Shown: positions 502-13,324 of the stretch, piece after piece
How positions within the stretch are numbered: the stretch's first letter is position 1
Layout of the letters: each line of letters starts with the position of its first letter
Notes under the pieces: model-generated
Told to the model about the DNA's origin: nothing
The model's input: only the letters and a program-made list of their open reading frames with translations
Database searches by the model: none
Translations under genes and position numbers: made by a program
DNA from: Clostridiales bacterium
GTDB taxonomy: Bacteria; Actinomycetota; Coriobacteriia; Anaerosomatales; SLCP01
Direction: 5' to 3'
DNA: 46,327 nt
NCBI GenBank assembly: GCA_018333995.1
Contig: JAGXSG010000001.1
Location: 1-46,327, forward strand

Positions 502-3234
502 CTACGCTCTTGCGATTCGTACCTTGACGTCGGTCATCAGAGCTGATGCCGAGGGATCGCGCCGTGCAACCTGAATCGGCAATGGCAACGCTGTGACGAG
601 CGTGTTGTCGTTCGCCCCGACACCGGCAGACGCATTGAGTCCAAATGCTCTCTGTGTCTGATTTCCAAGCGAATCAAGCGCCCTCGAATGCGACAGGGCC
701 CACGTGCCCCAACCATGCGGTATGAGGATGCAGTCCTGGCGGATGTGCTCGGTCACCCTGATAACGCCTCGCTCTCTCGCGCCCGGAATCTGCGGTGTGG
801 TAATTATGACCTCATCGCCTTGGACGAGACCGAGAGCGGATGCCGAGGTCGGGTGGATCTCGATCCGTCCCTTGTCCGACAGCTCGACCATCAACTCATC
901 AGCTTTACCCTCGGTATGGATGAGCATGGGTTCACGATTCGTCAGCAGCCAGAACTCTCCCAGTGCCGGATTCGGAAGTGTGATGGCTCCCGTCCCCACG
1001 CGAGGAGGCGCCCACCCCGGGAAACGCTCGATAAGCGTTGCCGCACCATTAGCGTCCGGCACTGTAGCGTAGGCGCTCGTAATTCCGGCATGAGCTCGAG
1101 CGCGTACATCCAACCGCACCCGACTTGCGGTGCTAAGCGCCGAGTAGTCGACCCAGACGGGTGCCGTTGCAGGCGTAGGCCTGATTCCCGTCCTGTCACC
1201 GGCGATTCCCGCACGGGAGGCAAACGTTGTCATGCTGGTTACGCCTGAATCCCACCCCAGCGCGATGGAGGGTGCGTGAACAGCCAGGTCCGCCAGTCTC
1301 CGATTGTTGAGCGCCCCGCCGCTCCAAGCCGGTCCTGTCAGCAACCCGTTGGTCGTGAAGAACATCCTCAGGCTGTTTCGATTGGTCATGAAGTTCGGGT
1401 TTGCCGTCGCCCATGCGGGATTGGCGGCCGCCCGTGCATCAGCGTAGGCTTGACACGCCTGCTGATACGTATTCCTGCCGACCACCACCGCATCCGCGGC
1501 GACTCCGATTTCCCTGATCGCACCAGCCAAAGAGACCGACTGCCCGATCGTGGTCGTGATCGAGCGCTCCTGGAATGCCACGTACCCATAGTTGCTCATC
1601 GCCTGGGTCCCACCGCTTCGGACCAGAAAATCCCTCTCGTTGTACGAGGGCTCAGGGAGCAGAACGTCAGACATCCACACCCCGGCATCGGCGTAGTAAC
1701 AGTGGTTGACGATGAAGCACTTCTCGAGCGCCCGCACCGTCATGTTCGTGTCGCAAGAGATAAACGGCGTGTTGTAGTGGTGATTGAATACCCAACGGAC
1801 GGGATACGGATGATCCTTGTCCATCTGGTCAAAGCCGGTTTCAAAGGAGCCGTGGTCGGGCGAAGTACCGGGCCACCACTGACGGAAATCGCCGCGCGGA
1901 AACGCCTGCCCGGTCGCAGGGTCAACTTCGTGAGCGGGAAAGCCGCCCGCCGGCAGCGGAAACGCGGTGTTGACCCCTGTCCACGACGGAAGCTGCCGAT
2001 CTAACAGATTGCCTCCCCGCCGATCAATCGAGCCAACCAAAACGTCGAGCACCACAGTAGCGTACGCCTGGCGCCACGAGTTCTCATAGTTTGGCCCTGC
2101 GGCGCCGTCACGCTTGTGGCTCATCACATGAGGGCGATGATCCGTGTAGACACCATCGTTGGTGAACTCCAAGGCGACTTGAAGGATGTCAGCGGCAGGC
2201 ACACCGGATTTCGCTTCTGCCCATGCGGCGACATCCGCGACACTTGCTGTCGACGTAAGTTCACCTGCGGCAAACCCATTCGTATCCACGAAGGCACGGA
2301 AATCGGTCCAGTCGGTAGCGTTGACATAGATGTCGATGAAGTTCGCGTTCCACTTCTGGTTAGCCACTATCCACTTGATCATGGCCCACATGACCGCGAG
2401 GTCAGTTCCCGGCTTGATCGCGTAGTAGCGACCACCGTAAGCGAGCGCCTTCGCAGCCATGTTGCTCAACCGCGGATCAAAGACCACCGACTTGGCCCCA
2501 TTATCAAGCGCCTTGATCACGCCAGCGACCGTTGGGTTCTGGGCACGCCCTACCTGGTCATGACCGAACGAGAGCAGATACGTGGAGTGCGCGTAATCAT
2601 GCGTCCACGTACGTCCGCCTCGGGCGATTTGGGGCACCATTGCCGGCCATGCCCATGTGTACGTGGTAAAACACGTCGACTGGTGCGACATGTGGTTCGG
2701 CGTCCCCAGTGCGTCCCTGAGTCGATTGACCCAGTCATTCCGGCGCGAGAGAACCATCGCCGCTTTCGGGCCATGCTGCTCTATCGTCTCCAGCAGGCTC
2801 TTCGCGCACAACTCATATGCCTCGGCGAAGCTTATGCGCACGAAGCCCGGGTCCTCGTTGGGACCCTTTCTAGGGTTGGTGCGCTTCATCGGGAACAGAA
2901 CTCTATCTGGACTCAGCGCCTTCTGGGGACTGCCGTACCCCTTCACGCATAGCGTTCCCGTGCCGTCACCAAACTGATTCGAGCACGGATGCGCTGGGTT
3001 TCCAAACACTTCGTACCGCCCGCTGCTCACTCTGCCGATGAGACCGCATTGCGAGCCGCACATCCGGCAAATCCCTACCGAATCCCTGAACACCGAACTC
3101 GCTCTAGCTTCCTGGGCCTCAACGAAATACTTGGTCGCGCCCGCGCCAATGCTCGCGCCGACGCCCAACGCGCCCATCAGTTTAGTGAACGAGCGCCGTG
3201 ACATGGGACGTGTCAAGGGTGTTGTGGTGGACAT
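502..3234 (-). CDS. Tat-exported molybdopterin oxidoreductase catalytic subunit (DMSO reductase superfamily)
   Basis: A 910-residue protein from ATG 3234, preceded by AGGAGGT 6 nt upstream; an in-frame TTG one codon earlier is less likely. A twin-arginine motif SRRSFTK (residues 12-18) precedes a hydrophobic stretch. C56/C59/C63/C96 form the N-terminal [4Fe-4S] motif (Cx2Cx3Cx32C). HQSTC, ending at C188, sits where Cys-ligated enzymes of the superfamily (Psr/Phs/Arr-like) bind molybdenum, so C188 is the proposed ligand. The C-terminal part matches the dinucleotide-binding domain. A TorD-like chaperone and two cytochromes lie upstream and a ferredoxin subunit downstream, indicating an extracytoplasmic respiratory oxidoreductase. 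The substrate (sulfur, arsenic, selenium or nitrogen oxyanion, or an organic oxide) cannot be deduced. Confidence 0.92.
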   Translation of the reverse strand: MSTTTPLTRPMSRRSFTKLMGALGVGASIGAGATKYFVEAQEARASSVFRDSVGICRMCGSQCGLIGRVSSGRYEVFGNPAHPCSNQFGDGTGTLCVKGYGSPQKALSPDRVLFPMKRTNPRKGPNEDPGFVRISFAEAYELCAKSLLETIEQHGPKAAMVLSRRNDWVNRLRDALGTPNHMSHQSTCFTTYTWAWPAMVPQIARGGRTWTHDYAHSTYLLSFGHDQVGRAQNPTVAGVIKALDNGAKSVVFDPRLSNMAAKALAYGGRYYAIKPGTDLAVMWAMIKWIVANQKWNANFIDIYVNATDWTDFRAFVDTNGFAAGELTSTASVADVAAWAEAKSGVPAADILQVALEFTNDGVYTDHRPHVMSHKRDGAAGPNYENSWRQAYATVVLDVLVGSIDRRGGNLLDRQLPSWTGVNTAFPLPAGGFPAHEVDPATGQAFPRGDFRQWWPGTSPDHGSFETGFDQMDKDHPYPVRWVFNHHYNTPFISCDTNMTVRALEKCFIVNHCYYADAGVWMSDVLLPEPSYNERDFLVRSGGTQAMSNYGYVAFQERSITTTIGQSVSLAGAIREIGVAADAVVVGRNTYQQACQAYADARAAANPAWATANPNFMTNRNSLRMFFTTNGLLTGPAWSGGALNNRRLADLAVHAPSIALGWDSGVTSMTTFASRAGIAGDRTGIRPTPATAPVWVDYSALSTASRVRLDVRARAHAGITSAYATVPDANGAATLIERFPGWAPPRVGTGAITLPNPALGEFWLLTNREPMLIHTEGKADELMVELSDKGRIEIHPTSASALGLVQGDEVIITTPQIPGARERGVIRVTEHIRQDCILIPHGWGTWALSHSRALDSLGNQTQRAFGLNASAGVGANDNTLVTALPLPIQVARRDPSASALMTDVKVRIARA

Positions 3235-3238
3235 CAAT

Positions 3239-3940
3239 CTACCTCCTCACTTCTTCTATTCGGCCTTCTAATCCGGCTAGACAGACGTCTATGCCAAGCA
3301 TCTGCGCATCCACTCTCAAGAACTCTGATCCGACACGTGCCGCATCGGCGTAGAACTCGGCTCGCGGGTCGGCCGCGACCCTGTCGAAGAACCTGGGAAT
3401 CCACGTCATCACGTGTGTCCCAAGGTAGTTCACAAGCACATCGGGGAAGCTGTTCGCTGTGTTCGCTGAACCGCTTCGCGCCACGCGGCCGGATAGGACC
3501 GATGCAAAATAGAGCTCGGCGCCCACATGATCAGCCAGCCATATGTCTTCCTCGCGCGGAACCAGTCCTTCATCGTGGTAGCAGTCGAGAACATCGCGCC
3601 ACGCGTCACCCATCAGGCGGGGCCTGTCACTCAGCCAACACGAAGCGTTCGCGTAGATCCTGTCGTGGCCGCAGAAGAGTCGTGCGTACTCGATCGCAAC
3701 ACGCTCGACAAGTCCTTCATCGCACGCAACCAGGGTGGCCGCGACTCTGTTGGCAGACTCCGGTGCGATTCCCGCCTGGGCGAATGCACGCAATGCGTGT
3801 CCACCTTCGCCGCCGCCGATCGAAAGCGCATCCTCCACTCCGAGTTCGCGTTCAAACAAACGTCCCAACAGTGCGTAAGCGACCTCTCGGCCCGTCGCCT
3901 CTTCCTTGATCGATAGGATCGTATCGTTCATGCTCGGCAT
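3239..3940 (-). CDS. TorD/DmsD-family molybdoenzyme maturation chaperone
   Basis: A 233-residue cytoplasmic, largely helical protein without signal peptide. It resembles the TorD/NarJ-like redox enzyme maturation chaperones, which bind the Tat leader and apo-form of a molybdoenzyme until cofactor insertion. The central stretch with DYxHDEG-like residues (CYHDEGLVPREED) and the region before it fit the family. Start ATG 3940 has GGAG 9 nt upstream. Its stop lies 4 nt before the ATG of the catalytic gene, so the two are translationally close and it is almost certainly the dedicated chaperone of that enzyme. The exact subfamily is uncertain. Confidence 0.85.
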   Translation of the reverse strand: MPSMNDTILSIKEEATGREVAYALLGRLFERELGVEDALSIGGGEGGHALRAFAQAGIAPESANRVAATLVACDEGLVERVAIEYARLFCGHDRIYANASCWLSDRPRLMGDAWRDVLDCYHDEGLVPREEDIWLADHVGAELYFASVLSGRVARSGSANTANSFPDVLVNYLGTHVMTWIPRFFDRVAADPRAEFYADAARVGSEFLRVDAQMLGIDVCLAGLEGRIEEVRR

Positions 3941-3965: not shown

Positions 3966-4535
3966 TCAGAAACGGTTCGTTTCCTCAGCCGCATAGAAGT
4001 CCAGGCCTCCATGACACTTGGTGCAGTAGGTGCTGCTGCGAGTAAAAAACCTGTTCACGTTGTCCACAGTGGCATGTATGGCTTGCGGATCGACGTGGCA
4101 TCCCGAAATCGTGCACCCTCGCGGATCAGTGAGCGCAAAGTCGATTCCGCCGTGCGCGTTCACGGTGAATCCGCCGTGACACCCCAGGCACGACTCGGGA
4201 TCCACCTGCTTACCCATGGTCGCCCCATCGGCATCCCACGTATTCGTCGACTGGTGACACGACGCGCACCCGTTGGCAGATGTCTGGTAGGTTAAGAATG
4301 CCGAGTACAGGTGACGCTTGTGGGCAGTGAATGTCTGTGGATCGAGTGATCGCTCGAGAGCCATCTGTCCGTGACACCCAATGCACTGCGCATTAGTCAC
4401 AGTGGCGGAGTCTAGATGCGCCGCATGTGAGTTAACCCCGGCGAAACTGGCGATGACAGCAGACGCCCCGAAGCCCGCGACAAAGACCGTACCCGCAATA
4501 GCCATGACCAGTAGTCGGCTACTCAGTGTAGACAT
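3966..4535 (-). CDS. Small multiheme c-type cytochrome (four CxxCH plus one Cx4CH motif)
   Basis: A 189-residue protein with an N-terminal hydrophobic segment (about residues 7-31) serving as signal peptide or membrane anchor. Heme c attachment motifs are CIGCH (51-55), CASCH (90-94), CLGCH (116-120) and CTKCH (171-175). CTISGCH (141-147) is an unusual Cx4CH site of the kind known from cytochromes c3. Up to five hemes are therefore possible. It lies 25 nt after a second cytochrome gene and 25 nt before the chaperone gene. Its likely role is electron transfer between the membrane quinol pool and the exported molybdoenzyme, or onwards at the cell surface; the direction of flow is unknown. Confidence 0.88.
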   Translation of the reverse strand: MSTLSSRLLVMAIAGTVFVAGFGASAVIASFAGVNSHAAHLDSATVTNAQCIGCHGQMALERSLDPQTFTAHKRHLYSAFLTYQTSANGCASCHQSTNTWDADGATMGKQVDPESCLGCHGGFTVNAHGGIDFALTDPRGCTISGCHVDPQAIHATVDNVNRFFTRSSTYCTKCHGGLDFYAAEETNRF

Positions 4536-4560: not shown

Positions 4561-5367
4561 CTAGGGCAGGAGGCCGGCGACGTGACATTGGAGGCACAAT
4601 CCGTCGGGCTCCATCGTCAACATCGCATCCGTGTATGACGTGTGCGGAAAGTCTGCTGTAGTTGTTGTGGCGACACTATTCCCATGACACGTCAGACACG
4701 CGTAGTCCGGGTGGTTCCGATGGACGTCCCCCGATGCCCTCCTGTCGTGACACGCCGCGCACCAATCTCCGCCCTGGGTAAGCCACGATCCCGTGAGGGT
4801 CGCACTCAAGTCTTGAGCGGAATGATTGGGTCGAGACGACAACAACGCCGGACTGAAAGTAGCCGGCATCACGTTCCCAAAGGCTCCATGAGGAGTGTGA
4901 CAGCTGGCACAGTACAAGCCCCTTGTAGCCGTGAAAGCGGTCGCGGAAACGGTCGCCGGATAGCTCAGGTACTGGATCGCCGTCAACGCCCCGCTGCCGC
5001 CGGGAATGTGGTTGTTCCCCAATCCAAGCCGGTGGCCTTCGTGCGTGAGCCGATCAGAAATGGGCACGTTGTATGCTGCTAGGTTCGGTACCGCAGCAGC
5101 GGAAGTGCCGGAGAACCCGGGGTCATAGGCACCCGTGGGCGCCGACTGATAGAGGGTGTGACACGTCGCGCACACGTCGGTGACGGTCGTCTCCCTCATA
5201 AGCACGTAATCCCCGGAAGCCTCATGCATATCGTGACATTGCAGACATGAGTCCGTCGCCATGCTGTAGCCACCGTGCGGGATCGTCGAGCCATCGGCCG
5301 CGAATACGACGGCGACGGACGACGAAGCGGCAAGCATCAGCACAACCGCGATAATGGTCGCTCTCAT
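4561..5367 (-). CDS. Six-heme c-type cytochrome, first gene of the respiratory operon
   Basis: A 268-residue protein with a classical Sec signal peptide (about residues 1-23, ending VFA). It has six CxxCH motifs at 41-45, 66-70, 153-157, 203-207, 224-228 and 258-262. Further His residues (for example the CHTPH and CHDMH contexts) could serve as distal ligands, as in the NrfH/doubled-CxxCH type cytochromes. Start ATG 5367 follows GGGAGGTG. As the first gene of the minus-strand operon it faces the 425-base control region and the divergent sensor genes. It is probably a periplasmic or surface electron carrier; no catalytic domain was recognised. Confidence 0.9.
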   Translation of the reverse strand: MRATIIAVVLMLAASSSVAVVFAADGSTIPHGGYSMATDSCLQCHDMHEASGDYVLMRETTVTDVCATCHTLYQSAPTGAYDPGFSGTSAAAVPNLAAYNVPISDRLTHEGHRLGLGNNHIPGGSGALTAIQYLSYPATVSATAFTATRGLYCASCHTPHGAFGNVMPATFSPALLSSRPNHSAQDLSATLTGSWLTQGGDWCAACHDRRASGDVHRNHPDYACLTCHGNSVATTTTADFPHTSYTDAMLTMEPDGLCLQCHVAGLLP

Positions 5368-5445
5368 AGTTCACCTCCCGTTCGCTCGCTGGTCAGTTCC
5401 CGCGTGATGCGCAGACGGTGCCCACACACCTCCCTTCGGGGGTCT

Positions 5446-5480
5446 TTCCGGTGTTCTCGACATCGAAATAAACACCGGAA
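5446..5480. promoter_or_regulatory. Perfect inverted repeat, candidate operator
   Basis: TTCCGGTGTT (5446-5455) and AACACCGGAA (5471-5480) are exact reverse complements separated by 15 nt, with centres 25 bp apart. The element sits 79-113 bp upstream of the ATG of the first cytochrome gene. No U tract follows on either strand, so an operator is more likely than a terminator. The regulator is unknown; the LytTR regulator encoded nearby is a candidate, although LytTR sites are usually direct repeats. Confidence 0.5.
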
Positions 5481-5684
5481 CGCCTGCAGCGTCTTCATGG
5501 TGTCACGAGGGCAGGCCATCGCCGCCCCGTGGACCGCTACAGATGATGAACTGCGGACAGGCGGTGACAGAATGCGTGTCCGGAACGCGAACCGACGATT
5601 GAGTGGCCTGCTCGCGCGGCCTGGGCGGCGGTGACCGTTGCGACCCGCATGCGAGGCGGCTCCCACCGCCGGAAGGCCTGCGGC

Positions 5685-5693
5685 TGATATGCT
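5685..5693 (+). promoter_or_regulatory. Weak extended -10 candidate for the sensor operon
   Basis: TGATATGCT fits an extended -10 (TGn plus TATGCT, 4 of 6). The hexamer 17 bp upstream (ACCGCC) does not resemble a -35. It lies about 100 nt before the ATG at 5793. This is only a candidate. Confidence 0.3.
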
Positions 5694-5792
5694 AGGACTA
5701 CGACTGATCGGTGGGCGCATCGTACGCTCGCAACAATCACAACGTCTTCTCACACGTAGATGACCCGGACCTGAACTGAAAGGAACAGGGGC

Positions 5793-6713
5793 ATGGACGC
5801 GAGGCGGCTGCTGCGGCTTTCTTTGGCAACTACAACAGCGATGACGCTGGTGTTACTTGCGTTCATTTCGAGCGCGGGGAACAGTGTGGACTCCTCCGTG
5901 ACCGAAGACTCACCACCGTCAGGCCGATCCCTCACCATCGCCGTCACACGGCTTGTCGGCGGTTGGGCCGCATGGCCTTCGTTTACAGAGGCGCTCGAAC
6001 ATGTCAGCCAGTCTACCGGGGTTCCGATCCAAGTAAGATTCCTGGCCCCGGGCGAGAGCGCTGAGGACATCTTTGCTGAGGACAGCGATGTGGATGCGGC
6101 CTTCATGTCGACATACGCGTTTCTGTTGGTCCGAGAGAAGAAAGGGGACGTCTCCCACCTTGCGACGCCGATCATCCGGGGGCGGACGTCTGAGCGGGCC
6201 GTGTTCGTCGTACATGCCAACAGCCCATACCTGAGCCTGCAGGAATTGAGGGGCGCCCGTCTGGCGCTCTCCCCTCCCGGCGTGGGCGGTTCGATACCTG
6301 GAAACGCCTATGCACGATGGCTGCTGCAGCAAGAGGGGCTCGGTGACGCAGAGGAGTTCTTTCGCGAAGTCGACGAGACATCCAGCCAGGATGCAAATCT
6401 TCAACTGGTTCTGAACGGTTCAGCCGATGCGACCACGGTGAGTCTTAGTCAGCTCGCCTCCTGGCCACAGGGTTCCTTTCGAGTACTCCACTATTCTGAG
6501 CGCTTCGCCATGCCTCCCTTTGTCGTCTCCCCGGAGCTCAGTGACGCCGAAGCCGAATGGATCATCGATGCGCTGGTAAGCTACACACCGGACGGCGATG
6601 ACGCGATTCTCGGGGGATTCACGCGACCGAGGCAAGAGGATTACGATTTCCCCTATATGCTCCTACGTTTCGCCCGAGACAGAACTGCGCCTATGGAGAG
6701 CGCCAAGCAATGA
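5793..6713 (+). CDS. PhnD-like periplasmic binding protein, probable signal-sensing partner of the adjacent kinase
   Basis: A 306-residue protein with an N-terminal export signal (RR plus hydrophobic residues about 6-28, no lipobox cysteine). The body resembles PhnD-type binding proteins: an opening beta strand LTIAVTR, a DVDAAFMSTYAFLLV segment and ALSPPGVGGSIPGN near the ligand pocket. No ABC permease or ATPase lies nearby. Instead the stop overlaps the start of a histidine kinase by 4 bases (ATGA). Stand-alone PhnD-like proteins next to kinases include AioX/ArrX arsenite sensors, so a sensor role for an oxyanion-like ligand is inferred. The ligand itself is unknown. Confidence 0.8.
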   Translation: MDARRLLRLSLATTTAMTLVLLAFISSAGNSVDSSVTEDSPPSGRSLTIAVTRLVGGWAAWPSFTEALEHVSQSTGVPIQVRFLAPGESAEDIFAEDSDVDAAFMSTYAFLLVREKKGDVSHLATPIIRGRTSERAVFVVHANSPYLSLQELRGARLALSPPGVGGSIPGNAYARWLLQQEGLGDAEEFFREVDETSSQDANLQLVLNGSADATTVSLSQLASWPQGSFRVLHYSERFAMPPFVVSPELSDAEAEWIIDALVSYTPDGDDAILGGFTRPRQEDYDFPYMLLRFARDRTAPMESAKQ

Positions 6714-8278
6714 GCAGTACATCCGTCGCGCGTGAAAGAAAGAGCAGATCTCTTGCCCTTCGATTCGTGCGCATGACCATCCTAGGGCAAGCTTTGTTCG
6801 GCGTCATGCTCGGTCTCGGTGCCGGCGCGTACGTCGTCGTTTCGGACTATCGTGCCCGGTATGTCTACATGGAAGATGTCGCTGGCGCCATGGCGGCGAG
6901 CTTGATGCCGATGGTGATCGACCGAGACATTCCCGCCGTACAAGGGCAACTAGGGATCCTGCAGTCCCTCGCTGGACGCGGAGACATAGTGGGCATCGAA
7001 TTCTCTGACACCTCTGGCCGTGTTCTGGCGACCATAGGCGACCTGCATACAGTGGACACCTCGCCAGCTTCCACGCCCATCATTGACCGGCTCTTCGGCC
7101 CGCACTCAATTAGGCATCACATCGCTATTGGTGACGTGCACTACGGTAGTGTACGGCTCGCGTTCGGGGAACGCTCTCTCATCGAGACGCTCGGTGCTGC
7201 GATGGTGGTCGCGCTACTGGTCACCCTGTCAGTCGTGTTGGTGTCCGCTCTTTGGTTCTCCTGGCTTACAGTGCGGACGGTGATCGAGCCAATCCAGGCC
7301 ATTCAGACGGCGGCGCGGCGACTGGCCGACGGCAAGCGTGACATATTCTTGGGACTCAAGAGGAACGACGAGATCGGATTGCTTGGGGACTCGATCGAGA
7401 ACCTTGCGCAGCAGCTGCAGAAAGGTGAAGCGGAACTGCGGGATGCTCTCAGGGACGCCCGGAAAGCACAGATCGGTGAGGCTCGGTTGCGAAAGAAGAC
7501 CGAGGAGGAAGCCCAGCTCAAATCTGACTTCGTGGCGGTCATCGCTCACGAACTGGGCACACCATTGTCCGTGGTGACCTTGTACAGCGATGTATTGGTT
7601 TCCAGCAGGGAGCGCGAAGCCGATGAGGACTCCGCAGAGGTGATCGATGGCATCGCCGCCGCCGCGTCTCGACTGAACTCCATCGTCAATGACTTGCTGG
7701 ACACGGCGCTGCTCGATCGCGGAGTGATGCGGATCACGATGAAACCGGTCGATCTGGCCGAGGTCGTCCGCGAAGCGGCGAAGGATGCTGCGCGATTGAG
7801 TGACACTCATGACTTGCGCGTAGATCTTGGTGCACCCGATCGACCCGATCGGCCATTACTTGTACACGCTGACAGAGTGCGAATCCGACAGATTCTGGAT
7901 AATCTCCTGTCTAACGCAACCAAGTATTCGCCGACCGGAAGCACAGTGACAGTCCGGGCTTTCCGCGACAATGATGATGCTGTCATCCAGGTGGAAGACC
8001 AGGGGCCAGGAATTCCCCACGCAAGCCGGTCAAGAGTGTTCCAGATGTTCGGCCGTCTGGATCATAGCGACAATCGCGACACAGCCGGTTTAGGTCTCGG
8101 GCTCGCGATCAGCGCGAGGATCGCCCAGGCCCACTCGGGGACACTCGGCTTCGAAGCGGGAAACGGTGGCGTGGGAACGGTGTTCACCCTGAGTATTCCT
8201 CTTCTCAGCACCGATGAAATCAACCCCCAAGGCCATGGACCGTCGACTGTAAAGATCATTAAGGAAGCGGAGGTGTGA
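6710..8278 (+). CDS. Membrane sensor histidine kinase (HAMP-HisKA-HATPase)
   Basis: A 522-residue kinase. A first membrane helix (about 23-46), an extracytoplasmic sensor region of about 110 residues and a second helix (about 160-186) precede a HAMP linker (187-238) and a coiled coil. HisKA carries the phospho-acceptor H280 in AHELGTP, where Gly replaces the usual Lys/Arg. HATPase_c shows the N box around N398/N402, DQGPG (430-434) and GLGLG (460-464). The gene overlaps the binding-protein gene by 4 bases and is followed after 3 nt by the regulator gene, so the three form one transcription unit. The binding protein probably docks on the sensor region. Confidence 0.93.
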   Translation: MSSTSVARERKSRSLALRFVRMTILGQALFGVMLGLGAGAYVVVSDYRARYVYMEDVAGAMAASLMPMVIDRDIPAVQGQLGILQSLAGRGDIVGIEFSDTSGRVLATIGDLHTVDTSPASTPIIDRLFGPHSIRHHIAIGDVHYGSVRLAFGERSLIETLGAAMVVALLVTLSVVLVSALWFSWLTVRTVIEPIQAIQTAARRLADGKRDIFLGLKRNDEIGLLGDSIENLAQQLQKGEAELRDALRDARKAQIGEARLRKKTEEEAQLKSDFVAVIAHELGTPLSVVTLYSDVLVSSREREADEDSAEVIDGIAAAASRLNSIVNDLLDTALLDRGVMRITMKPVDLAEVVREAAKDAARLSDTHDLRVDLGAPDRPDRPLLVHADRVRIRQILDNLLSNATKYSPTGSTVTVRAFRDNDDAVIQVEDQGPGIPHASRSRVFQMFGRLDHSDNRDTAGLGLGLAISARIAQAHSGTLGFEAGNGGVGTVFTLSIPLLSTDEINPQGHGPSTVKIIKEAEV

Positions 8279-8281
8279 GAA

Positions 8282-9037
8282 ATGGCTGAAGAACATCCGG
8301 TTGCCGGCGGCGGAAAAGTGCTGATTATCGATGACAGCGTTGACCTTCTCAAAGGGCTCCGTATGGTGCTTTCCAGAGAAGGTTATTTGGTCGAGACACT
8401 CAACAAGCCCGCGATGGCCATGAGTGTTGTTAAGAGCACCCACCCTGACCTTTTGATACTTGATGTAATGATGCCGGAGGTTGACGGCTGGCAAGTCCTC
8501 CGTAGCGTCAGGGGCGATGCTGACACAGCAAACATTCCGATACTGATGCTGACCGCCAAAGGCTCACCTGAGGCCAAAATCTCGGGTTTCACTCTGGGAG
8601 CCGACGATTATCTGGTCAAACCCTTCGAGATTTCTGAACTCAAGTGCCGCATCGCCGCCCTGTTGCGACGCTCGGTGGACCACCAAAACCCCTCTCCCGC
8701 AGAATACCTGTTCCCCGGCTTCCTAGGCTCAGGCGAGTCGTTGCTGATTCCCTCAAGAGATGTCTACTTCGTCGAAGGAGCAAAAAACTACACGTACGTG
8801 CACACCTACGACAAGAAGTGCCTGAGTCGCTTGACGCTAGGAGAGGCGACCGCGGCCGCTCCGCATGGCTTCATGAGAGTCCATCGATCGTACTTGGTCA
8901 ACCTTGGAAGAATCGCATCCGGGAGGTGGGCTTCCTCCTCTCTCTACCGGGTAACCCTATCTGATGCCGATGGGACTCAGATCCCAATCAGCCGAGGGTT
9001 GGTCAGCCAGATCAGAACAGCGGCAGGACTGAAGTGA
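8282..9037 (+). CDS. Response regulator with receiver and LytTR DNA-binding domain
   Basis: A 251-residue protein starting at ATG 8282 behind GGAGGTG. The receiver domain (about 10-130) has the acidic pair D17/D18, phospho-acceptor D61 in LILDVMMPE, T91 and K113, so it should be phosphorylatable. The C-terminal part (about 150-250) is a LytTR domain with the characteristic MRVHRSYLVN. LytTR regulators usually pair with LytS-type kinases, whereas here the partner is a HisKA/HAMP kinase encoded immediately upstream. The likely target is the divergent respiratory operon, its own operon, or both. Confidence 0.92.
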   Translation: MAEEHPVAGGGKVLIIDDSVDLLKGLRMVLSREGYLVETLNKPAMAMSVVKSTHPDLLILDVMMPEVDGWQVLRSVRGDADTANIPILMLTAKGSPEAKISGFTLGADDYLVKPFEISELKCRIAALLRRSVDHQNPSPAEYLFPGFLGSGESLLIPSRDVYFVEGAKNYTYVHTYDKKCLSRLTLGEATAAAPHGFMRVHRSYLVNLGRIASGRWASSSLYRVTLSDADGTQIPISRGLVSQIRTAAGLK

Positions 9038-9477: not shown

Positions 9478-10119
9478 CTACCGCACGGCCTTTCTGCGCT
9501 CAATCTTCTTCTTGACCTTCTTGAGCCGGAAGAGATCCTCACGCGCGCGCTCGTCGAGCGTCTGGCGGATATACGCGACCTGCTGACGAAGTTGCGGCAC
9601 TGTCACCTGCTCGAGCGCGTTCACACGCCGGTTCGTCTTTTGGATCTCCTCGCCTAGCCTTTTGAGCCGCGTCTCGATGTCGGCATACTCGATGATGACA
9701 TCGAGTATGCGCTCGAACTTATCGGCGCTCTCGTCCACGCGGGACGACACTCCCGTCACCGCGTAACCCCGCGTAAACGACGACCGGATCGGACTCTCGC
9801 CTTTCGTTACCACAGGTACCGAGACGCCCATGATCTTGGTCCCGGTCATGTCAACGACGATCTCACTCGTCGTCGCCATGCCCGCGCTCCTGAGAGCGAC
9901 CGTTCCGTCGACCGCCTTGGCGACCGCGAGCGAGTACTGCGCCTCCGAGACGGTCTTTTGGAGTGACTCGGAGAGCCGAAGCGTCTCGTCCATCACTCCC
10001 ATGAACTCGATGAGCAGGGCGTCGCGCTTCTGCTTGAGCAGGTCCATGCCTTGCTCGGCAAGGGTGATCTGCTGTTTCCTCTCCAGTAACTCGGCCCGCG
10101 TAGGCCGCACCTCTTCCAT
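9478..10119 (-). CDS. atpD: V/A-type ATP synthase subunit D (central stalk)
   Basis: A 213-residue protein, the usual length for the family, with long N- and C-terminal heptad helices (for example LLKQKRDALLIEF near residues 28-40 and RREDLFRLKKVKKK-like basic residues at the C-terminus). Subunit D is the rotor shaft that turns inside the A3B3 head and links it to the membrane ring. It is the last gene of the nine-gene ATPase operon and starts 9 nt after subunit B. It ends convergently 4 nt from the unknown gene on the plus strand, with no room for a separate terminator. Confidence 0.93.
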   Translation of the reverse strand: MEEVRPTRAELLERKQQITLAEQGMDLLKQKRDALLIEFMGVMDETLRLSESLQKTVSEAQYSLAVAKAVDGTVALRSAGMATTSEIVVDMTGTKIMGVSVPVVTKGESPIRSSFTRGYAVTGVSSRVDESADKFERILDVIIEYADIETRLKRLGEEIQKTNRRVNALEQVTVPQLRQQVAYIRQTLDERAREDLFRLKKVKKKIERRKAVR

Positions 10120-10128
10120 GTTCGCTCC

Positions 10129-11568
10129 TTAGAACCGGACGTTGAGCCCCGCCTCCGCGGAGACGCTGGGGTGATACTTCTCGATGAAATCGCGGACGCG
10201 CTTGAGCTCACTCATCGGCAGCCCCGCCATGAGCTCCCACCCTATATCGAGCGTCTGCTCGATGGTGCGGCCTTCATCGCCCTGGCCTACGATACGCTTC
10301 TCGAACTCGTCAGCGAATCGCAGGTATGCGCGGTCGCTGTCGGAGAGCGCCTCTTCACCCACTATCGCGACAAGTTTGCGCAGGTCGCGGCCTTGCGCGT
10401 ACGCCGAGTACAGCTGGTTCGCCACAGCCCGGTGGTCGTCGCGCGTCTTGCCCTCTCCAATGCCGAGGTTCATCAGGCGCGATAGACATGGAAGCACGTC
10501 GATGGGCGGGAACACCGCACGGCGATGCAACTGACGGGAGAGCACGATCTGCCCCTCGGTGATGTAGCCGGTGAGGTCAGGGATCGGGTGAGTGATGTCA
10601 TCATCGGGCATCGACAGGATCGGAAGCTGCGTCACCGATCCCTTCCGTCCCTTGATGCGCCCCGCGCGCTCGTAGATCGTCGACAGGTCGGTGTACATGT
10701 AGCCGGGATACCCGCGCCGGCCCGGAACCTCTTCACGCGCGGTGGACACTTCACGTAGCGCCTCACAGTAGTTCGTCATGTCCGAGAGAACCACGAGCAC
10801 CTGCAGGTCCTTCTCGAACGCGAGGTACTCGGCCACGGTCAGCGCGCAGCGCGGGGTGAGAAGCCTCTCGACAGTGGGGTCATCGGCGAGGTTGAGAAAG
10901 AACACGACACGCTCAAGTGCGCCGGTACCCTCGAACTGAGACATGAAGTACGCGGCCTCCCGATGGGTGATCCCCATCGCCCCGAACACGATCGCGAACT
11001 CCTCGCCGCTCTTGACGCGAGCTTGACGGATGATCTGCGCGGCGAGCTCGTTGGCGGGAAGGCCCGAGCCCGAGAAGATCGGCAGCTTCTGTCCGCGCAC
11101 GAGCGTGTTGAGTCCGTCAATGGCACTGATGCCCGTCTCGATAAAGTCCGCCGGCTTCTCGCGGGTGTACGGGTTGATCGGCGCTCCCGTGATGTCGAGG
11201 CGGGCCTCCGGGATGATCGGCGCTCCGCCGTCGATCGGCTTGCCTGTCCCGTTGAAGATCCTGCCGAGCAGATCCGGCGACACGCTGACGCGAGCGACCT
11301 CTTCTAAGAACCGCACTTCGGTCGCGTCAACGTCGATTCCTTGGGTGCCCTCGAAGACTTGGATGACCGCCGTCTCGCCACTCACCTCGAGAACCTGCCC
11401 GCTGCGACGCCCGCCGTCCGGCATCCTGATCGAGACCATCTCGTTGTACGCGACCCCGCGCACGTTTTCCACGAAGACGAGTGGCCCCGTGACGTAGCTG
11501 ATAGTCCGGTAGTCCGTTGAGACAAGTGAACCTTGGTTCCCGCGTGCTTTCGCCGTCGCTGGCGTCAC
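10129..11568 (-). CDS. atpB: V/A-type ATP synthase subunit B (non-catalytic, regulatory head subunit)
   Basis: A subunit of the A3B3 head that alternates with catalytic A and binds nucleotide without a full P-loop. It shows [39 protein letters not shown] and [14 protein letters not shown] as in the family. A longer open frame extends upstream inside atpA, but GTG 11568, 1 nt after the atpA stop and 9 nt behind GAGG, gives 479 residues, close to the family length. The C-terminus (FIEKYHPS) is typical. Confidence 0.93.
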
Positions 11569-11569
11569 G

Positions 11570-13324
11570 TCAGTACACCTCGATTCCGGCGATGTCCTCG
11601 GCGATGCTCTTCGCCAGTGCGGGCAGGTTTTCGATGGCCTCGTCATGGGGTGTCGTCTTCATCATCGCGATACGCTCTTTGTGCGGCAACTCAAGCACCT
11701 GCCTGAGCGACACTCCCCTGTTGAGCGCCCCCACCGCCGCATCGTGAAAAGCGAGAACCGCCTTAAGCATCAGATACTGCTTCTCGGGCGGACAGTACGC
11801 GTCGATGTCGTCAAACGCGAACTGCTGGAGGAAGTCCTCGCGCAACATGCGCGCGATCTCCAAAATGATCTTCTCGGATTCGGGAAGCGCGTCCGGGCCG
11901 ACGAGCTGGACGATCTCTTGCAGCTCGGTCTCCTTCTGCAAAATGCCCATCGCCCGTTCTCGCATCGCGTGCCAGTCGCTCGCAACGTTCTCCTCGTACC
12001 ACGTGCGCACTTGGCCGAGGTAGAGCGTGTAGGACTTGGTCCATGAGATGGCGGGAAAATGCCGGCGATGCGCAAGCGACGTGTCGAGCGCCCAAAACGC
12101 GCCGGAGACGCGCAGGGAATTCTGCGTCATCGGTTCGGACATGTCACCACCAGCCGGCGAGACAGCGCCGACCATCGTGACCGAACCGGTCCGTTCATCA
12201 CTGCCGAGCGCGCGCACGCGACCCGAGCGCTCGTAGAACGCTGCGAGCCGAGTTGCCAGGTACGCGGGGTACCCTTCCTCGCCGGGCATCTCTTCGAGCC
12301 GACCCGAAACCTCACGGAGCGCCTCTCCCCACCGCGAGGTCGAATCGGCCATCATCGCCACGTCGTAACCCATGTCCCGGTAGTACTCGGCGAGCGTCGC
12401 CCCTACGTAGATCGACGCCTCTCTCGCGGCGACCGGCATGTTGGAGGTGTTTGCCACGAGCACGGTACGGTCCATCAGCGGCGCTCCGCTTCGCGGGTCC
12501 TCCAGTTCAGGGAACTCGACAAGGACCTCTGTCATCTCGTTTCCCCGCTCGCCGCATCCCACGTAGACGATGATGTCGACATCCGCCCACTTGGCGAGCG
12601 ATTGCTGAGTGACCGTCTTGCCCGTGCCAAAGCCACCAGGGATGATCGCGTTTCCGCCGAGCGCTATCGGGAAGAGCGTGTCGAGGATCCGCATCCCGGT
12701 CATGAAGGGACGTGCCGGGTCAAGCTTGCGCGCGTATGGTCTCCCTTGGCGGACCGGCCACCACTGCGACATCGTGATTTCGGTGCCGTCTTCGAGTTTC
12801 GCGAGCACAGCGTCGACCGTGTACCCGCCGTCATCGGTCACCCATGCCACCGTTCCCGCGGCTGTCCCGGGGGGGACCATGACCTTGTGGACGATCGTCT
12901 GACCCTCAGGGGTCGTACCTATCACGTCGCCAGGAACAACGTGCTGGCCAACCGCGACCGTCGGCGTGAACTCCCATATCCGCTCGCGATCGAGGGCGGA
13001 GGCTACCGTTCCGCGCTCGATGAAGTCTCCACTTTCTGCGGCTATCACCGGCAAGGGACGCTGTACGCCGTCGTAGATCGAAGACAGCAACCCTGGTCCT
13101 AGCTCCACCATGAGCGGCCCCTCGCTCGACTCCACGGGGTCGCCGACGGTAAGACCTGAGGTGTCCTCGTACACCTGAACGGTCGCCTGGTCTCCTTCGA
13201 GCCGGATGACCTCGCCCATGAGACCTTCTTCACCCACACGGACGATGTCATACATCTTTGCGCCCAGCATTCCGGACGCGACGACAACAGGCCCGGTGAT
13301 CTTGGATATCGTTCCTGCAATCAT
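11570..13324 (-). CDS. atpA: V/A-type ATP synthase catalytic subunit A
   Basis: A 584-residue catalytic subunit that hydrolyses or makes ATP. It has a P-loop GGFGTGKT (230-237), the A-specific non-homologous bulge region (about 120-200), and [20 protein letters not shown] followed by [14 protein letters not shown]. Most family members read GPFGSGKT or GPFGAGKT, so the Pro-to-Gly change is a small peculiarity; the essential Lys and Thr are intact. ATG 13324 overlaps the stop of subunit F by one base (TGATG). Confidence 0.96.

Follow-up and report, generated by a model that had tools for sequence, protein, structure and literature searches.

The stretch of DNA analysed here (the window) comprises the first 46,327 nucleotides (nt) of contig JAGXSG010000001.1 in an assembly of the order Anaerosomatales, phylum Actinomycetota (GCA_018333995.1; G000 in our comparison set, in which G labels denote genomes and L labels denote loci). 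Near its beginning lie three tandem genes, which we call X, S and R, encoding a PhnD-like sensor protein (P0001), a HAMP/HisKA sensor kinase and a response regulator made of a receiver (REC) and a LytTR domain. They are transcribed divergently from a molybdoenzyme operon. An earlier note on this DNA had described this arrangement, and we confirmed it at the exact coordinates that the note gave for the three open reading frames (Table 1).

The X protein begins with a hydrophobic membrane helix (residues 3-30), followed by a type II periplasmic-binding fold (AlphaFold model, mean pLDDT 87). S consists of a transmembrane (TM) segment, an extracytoplasmic alpha/beta domain of ~110 residues, a further TM segment, and HAMP (187-237), HisKA (271-337, containing His280) and HATPase_c (388-498) domains, and is placed by NCBIfam as PhoR/WalK-like. 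R has a PhoB-like REC domain (13-124), in which Asp61 is invariant, and a LytTR domain (153-247). No catalytic residue of S or R varies among the aligned relatives. The start codon of S overlaps the stop codon of X by 4 nt (ATGA, 6710-6713), and R starts 3 nt past the stop of S. The X gene is a stand-alone gene, i.e. no other relative of it was found elsewhere in G000, and the genes that come next after the trio encode V-type ATPase subunits (D, B and A, at 9478-13324), with no transporter genes nearby. A second PhoB-like REC-LytTR regulator of the same genome (contig C8, L231:6537-8347) lies beside an NPCBM-associated-domain protein and not beside a kinase.

Among the 69 genomes of the order, 20 contain X followed by S, and R is a REC-LytTR protein in all 17 loci in which it could be read (15 of 15 by Pfam in alignment A1, plus G023 and G004; in G039, G025 and G016 the contig stops before the third gene). 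A strong match in G017, an ArrX-like protein with its own kinase, was left out of the 20, and in G049 S- and R-like genes follow the gene for methylenetetrahydrofolate reductase (MTHFR), with no X match in the piece read. The HAMP, HisKA and HATPase_c domains are present in all 19 kinases of alignment A4. In the phylum outside the order, X-S-R with a LytTR regulator occurs in G135, G376 and G298, and in G416 the LytTR regulator is divergent from X-S. A contig scan with the regulator alignment returned mostly ordinary REC relatives, the scan patterns having fallen in the REC domain. Because the X-S(-R) order recurs at this frequency in the order and again in other families of the phylum, chance adjacency is excluded: the trio is one real unit, as the earlier note had proposed.

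Table 1. Features of the trio, the divergent operon and related loci (positions in the window unless a locus label is given)
Feature	Position	Strand	Evidence
4Fe-4S dicluster subunit (PsrB/DmsB-like), cut by contig start	2..445	-	family match
Molybdoenzyme catalytic subunit, PhsA/PsrA-like, 911 amino acids, Tat-type N-terminus	502..3237	-	domain/family matches
TorD/NarJ-family molybdoenzyme chaperone	3239..3940	-	PF02613, E 1e-13
cytA, multihaem c-type cytochrome, 4 CXXCH + one CX4CH	3966..4535	-	sequence motifs
cytB, multihaem c-type cytochrome, 6 CXXCH	4561..5367	-	sequence motifs
Intergenic region between trio and divergent operon, 425 nt	5368..5792	.	no LytTR-type direct repeat, no sigma-70 promoter match
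Perfect inverted repeat TTCCGGTGTT-N15-AACACCGGAA, 10-base arms, ~80 nt upstream of cytB start	5446..5480	.	
X, PhnD-like sensor, 306 amino acids	5793..6713	+	Pfam PF12974 Phosphonate-bd, E 1e-28
S, sensor kinase, 522 amino acids	6710..8278	+	HAMP, HisKA, HATPase_c
R, response regulator REC-LytTR, 251 amino acids	8282..9037	+	REC, E 7e-26; LytTR, E 3e-19
Palindrome sites, regulator-to-FeS-subunit gaps	L213:6298, L225:7271, L230:5824, L215, L221, L224, L227		
Palindrome sites, LytTR loci outside the order	L175:5487, L176:14501		

Kinship and ligand pocket of X

A search of the PDB with the X sequence alone matched ArrX only (E 1e-12). The corresponding profile search ranked ArrX (5e-48) and AioX (1e-27) ahead of the phosphite/phosphonate transporter proteins (PhnD, 6e-16), although one row of the profile alignment is ArrX-like and biases the search towards ArrX. 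A fold search with the predicted structure of X also pointed to ArrX and AioX, which ranked first. These two proteins are themselves PhnD-like and form the first component of the XSR systems found beside arsenic molybdoenzymes (PMC5908839); the contrast that the earlier note drew with AioXSR, as a different kind of system, was therefore not supported, AioX and ArrX being also the nearest solved structures. In the X tree the proteins of the order form a clade on a long branch (1.4), apart from the PhnD proteins of ATP-binding cassette (ABC) transporters and from the ArrX/AioX clade, in which they are not nested, and X scored 39 bits against the PhnD equivalog (cut-off 261 bits).

The residues that hold the oxyanion in this group of proteins are, in AioX numbering, Y88, C106, Y131, S161, S163 (or Thr), H192 and D210. 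Of 27 other XSR X proteins (ArrX and AioX included), 26 have the full signature, as do four of the five LytTR-type X proteins outside the order; ABC-type PhnD proteins retain five of the residues, with Gly at 106. The signature is not arsenic-specific, because it also accompanies TtrA- and PhsA-like enzymes. In the order's 19 X proteins, the number of these seven residues retained is between none and three, and the window X keeps one (G, S, E, S, P, Q and S at the respective positions); at position 106 the window group has Ser, and some of the order's proteins have Cys. Since six of the seven AioX/ArrX ligand residues are replaced, the ligand of the window X is probably not an arsenic oxyanion, and the ligand has probably changed in the order as a whole. 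A reading of X as an arsenic sensor was rejected on these pocket residues.

All 19 X proteins of the order, at 25-64% sequence identity, share a loop R53-x2-G56G57-x3-W61 (G56 in 18 of them), and this loop was absent from all other X/PhnD sequences compared (43; 2 not readable there). By offset (AioX 88 corresponds to P0001 87), it falls at about the position of AioX loop 53-61, which moves upon arsenite binding and has been proposed to signal to the kinase (PMC5908839). A bolder proposal, which we find plausible but short of probable, is that the X proteins of the order constitute a new sensory binding-protein subfamily, in which the oxyanion pocket was rebuilt around this loop for a new ligand class, the X-S-R wiring was kept, the output was swapped to LytTR and, in the window lineage, the unit came to control a respiratory molybdoenzyme.

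The molybdoenzyme operon and its link to the trio

The operon facing the trio includes a 4Fe-4S dicluster subunit that was missing from the earlier note's description. The solved structures nearest to the catalytic subunit are polysulfide/thiosulfate reductase (2vpw) and ArrA, and Cys189 (in SHQSTC) is its probable molybdenum (Mo) ligand. The best annotated matches in a plasmid search with this subunit were phsA, at just 26-28% identity over 58% of the protein, too distant to put a name to the substrate of the enzyme.

Within the order, this molybdoenzyme was found only in G000 and in G013, a genome of another family. The G013 genes run in the order trio-cytB1-cytB2-cytA-TorD-Mo, all in one direction (the locus was joined from contigs C1 and C30, which share at least 250 identical nt; the offset implies ~311). 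The linkage is thus observed in two arrangements; that it outlived a switch between co-directional and divergent orientation is locally the strongest argument for a working link. In G135 and G376, both outside the order, the neighbours of the LytTR trio are genes for a 6-haem cytochrome, a TorD, a PhsA-like Mo subunit and a 4Fe-4S subunit. X relatives at E <1e-35 were found in 24 of 301 Chloroflexota genomes. Of the 21 X loci read there, 17 also have the catalytic subunit of a molybdoenzyme within the same piece (TtrA/PhsA type where tested).

Two side observations concern G013. Its six-haem cytochrome gene is partly duplicated in tandem between the regulator and the operon, with near-identical leaders (L181:1-1625). 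At fourfold sites, the molybdoenzyme gene of the window (502-3237) is 64% identical to that of G013, compared with 39% for MTHFR and 27-45% for the genes neighbouring the molybdoenzyme gene; this could reflect either codon selection or a more recent exchange of the molybdoenzyme gene alone.

The intergenic region contains a perfect inverted repeat (Table 1) that was matched by none of 100 shuffles, even at up to 3 mismatches, and is unique in the genome; no counterpart was found in G013. The repeat is a candidate for an operator or for a leader hairpin.

Genomic settings and alternative readings

We think it rather probable that the trio is a variant of the XSR three-component systems with a LytTR output and an altered pocket, which in the window lineage would most likely control the adjacent molybdoenzyme operon. 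In such a mechanism, the exported and probably membrane-anchored X would bind a small ligand outside the membrane, and liganded X would contact the extracytoplasmic domain of S. S would then autophosphorylate at His280 and pass the phosphoryl group to Asp61 of R; R would dimerise, bind through its LytTR domain to DNA in or near 5368-5792, and raise transcription of the divergent cytochrome-cytochrome-TorD-molybdoenzyme-FeS operon, the product of which would be a respiratory reductase of the PhsA/PsrA type.

Several observations weigh against control of the operon. Within the order, a molybdoenzyme accompanies the trio at 2 of about 20 loci, and ~14 loci lie instead at the MTHFR/methionine-synthase locus (11 seen directly, co-directional after MTHFR). 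In the X tree, both branches of the basal split in the order's clade include trios at the MTHFR location; this location is therefore probably ancestral, and that of the window is probably derived. The pocket signature that accompanies molybdoenzyme-linked X proteins is reduced to a single residue in the window X. No operator for R was found: in a LytTR direct-repeat scan of 18 upstream regions the best window site had 16 of 18 matches, a value equalled by 6 of 100 shuffles, and footprinting showed that the upstream regions of the window and G013 share just the leader beside the start codon. The earlier note had considered that its acceptor-sensing circuit would be untenable if the trio occurred mostly away from molybdoenzymes. 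Inside the order this is so, but the wider family does not bear it out: the molybdoenzyme linkage holds in the window, G013, G135, G376 and the Chloroflexota loci counted above and is absent at most loci of the order, which leaves the acceptor-sensing reading partly supported.

The MTHFR locus is a row of MTHFR, homocysteine-biosynthesis, NIL-ferredoxin and methionine-synthase genes, in which the trio often precedes a dihydrolipoyl-dehydrogenase-like gene. P0001 clusters with full support with the X proteins of G013 and of G039 (another family), and not with those of its own family, which suggests that this version of X has moved between families. In many genomes of the order (L024, L026, L030, L034, L035 and others) MTHFR is followed by a TorD/NarJ-like gene that has no molybdoenzyme in its vicinity. 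Because this gene is found there whether or not the trio is, the idea that it marks a hidden molybdoenzyme link was dropped. In two families, a split-Soret-type cytochrome gene lies directly 3' of a LytTR trio (L025:981-2036 and L032:12944-13948).

These settings could also be explained if the trio is real but its regulon is not the molybdoenzyme, i.e. if it senses sulfur/one-carbon metabolism or a cell-envelope signal and was moved beside the operon by rearrangement. The probable ancestry of the co-directional MTHFR location speaks for such a history, as do the trios of G055, G037 and G002, which lie beside split-Soret or other multihaem cytochromes with no molybdoenzyme seen. However, MTHFR is a core gene of the order (67 of 69 genomes) and most MTHFR loci lack the trio, so that the methionine locus may be a mere address; moreover, the window group accompanies the Mo operon in two families and in two orientations, and LytTR trios outside the order are likewise Mo-linked. 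We therefore regard this explanation as unlikely, though with a real share of the probability.

The fate of the pocket raises the further idea that X has lost ligand binding altogether, or senses a protein or redox partner such as the neighbouring cytochromes, and so activates S constitutively or under redox control. The near-complete replacement of the AioX-type ligand residues, the Ser or Cys at position 106 and the anchored N-terminal helix would fit, but the retention of the R-x2-GG-x3-W loop in 19 such divergent sequences argues for a retained function there, and we consider the idea improbable. Least of all do we expect X to be an orphaned binding protein of an ABC transporter with no role in the two-component pair beside it. 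The Pfam family name of X, Phosphonate-bd, might be taken to mean this, but X has V-type ATPase and molybdoenzyme genes around it and no transporter genes, it overlaps S, the X-S-R order is conserved over many families, and the PhnD proteins of ABC transporters, which have Gly at position 106, fall into a clade of their own.

Comparison with known systems

The trio resembles ArrXSR, AioXSR and ArxXSR (PMC5908839) in having a PhnD-like X, a HAMP kinase S and a regulator R near a molybdoenzyme of the dimethyl sulfoxide (DMSO) reductase family. It shares with them a separate X of PhnD fold and an adjoining HAMP kinase and regulator, and in the window, G013, G135 and G376, but not at most other loci of the order, the molybdoenzyme linkage. 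It lacks the seven-residue oxyanion pocket (1 of 7 in the window) and an R of NtrC or FixJ/LuxR type: XSR regulators are NtrC-type in Aio and Arx and FixJ/LuxR-like in Arr (PMC5908839), and NtrC-type in a Rhodospirillaceae XSR locus, whereas the window R is a REC-LytTR protein with a PhoB-like REC domain, and its neighbouring enzyme is PhsA-like. The earlier note was right that a LytTR output with a HisKA kinase sets the trio apart from these systems; its description of the circuit as undescribed holds for the output domain only, since the system as a whole is of the XSR kind.

The Chloroflexota X-S-R units also have a separate X, S and R adjoining a molybdoenzyme. They differ in S (sCache_3_2 with HisKA_3 in the 3 tested), in R (LuxR, GerE, in the 4 tested) and in the pocket, which is complete. 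At several of these loci, palindromes of the TCAGG-N5-CCTGA type, i.e. TC(A/G)GG-N5-CC(T/C)GA with one spacing (e.g. TCAGGAAAATCCTGA), lie between the regulator and molybdoenzyme genes. They resemble the predicted ArrR site tcaggtttttccctga (PMC5908839). At the two LytTR loci outside the order in G135 and G376, the palindrome, as TCAGGGAATTCCCTGA, lies in a conserved block upstream of the cytochrome gene. In the window the TCAGG-N-CCTGA palindrome occurs at chance level.

The tetrathionate and thiosulfate two-component systems TtrSR and ThsSR (PMC5408782) are similar in combining a PhnD-like sensing part, a kinase and a regulator near a sulfur-oxyanion reductase. In TtrS, which lies beside tetrathionate reductase, kinase and PhnD-like part are fused in one protein, and by 2017 the list of kinases with a PhnD-like sensor domain had reached 838 entries (PMC5408782). 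The trio differs from TtrSR in its separate X, in its LytTR regulator (LuxR-type in TtrSR) and in its PhsA-like enzyme (TtrA in TtrSR). The LytS/LytT and AgrC/AgrA-type systems share the REC-LytTR output protein with the trio, but their kinases have His_kinase or HATPase_c_5 domains and not HisKA, and they have no binding-protein component (PMC8895600). In this survey of quorum-sensing systems, no HisKA domain was present in the kinases of LytTR regulators. The window S has none of the LytS-type features (His_kinase PF06580, HATPase_c_5 or 5TM-LYT), and a LytTR paralogue system of the same genome does have a PF06580 kinase. TorTSR consists of a periplasmic binding protein, a kinase and a regulator with OmpR-type output (TorR), which together control a molybdoenzyme operon that also encodes a cytochrome and TorD. 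TorT is distinct from AioX in both structure and phylogeny (PMC5908839).

In the open-access literature we found no system that joins PhnD-like or other periplasmic binding proteins with LytTR. A PhnD-like sensor, kinase and regulator beside a molybdoenzyme is therefore a known kind of system, and the LytTR output with a HisKA kinase is its unusual part. The trio may help to find the substrate of the uncharacterised PhsA-like respiratory enzyme beside it, and the apparent rebuilding of the binding pocket in one lineage provides proteins on which to test how ligand choice is determined in sensory binding proteins. Taken with the known systems, the trio shows that the unit of PhnD-like X and kinase has been combined with at least three types of DNA-binding output domain (NtrC, LuxR and LytTR), often near enzymes of the DMSO reductase family.

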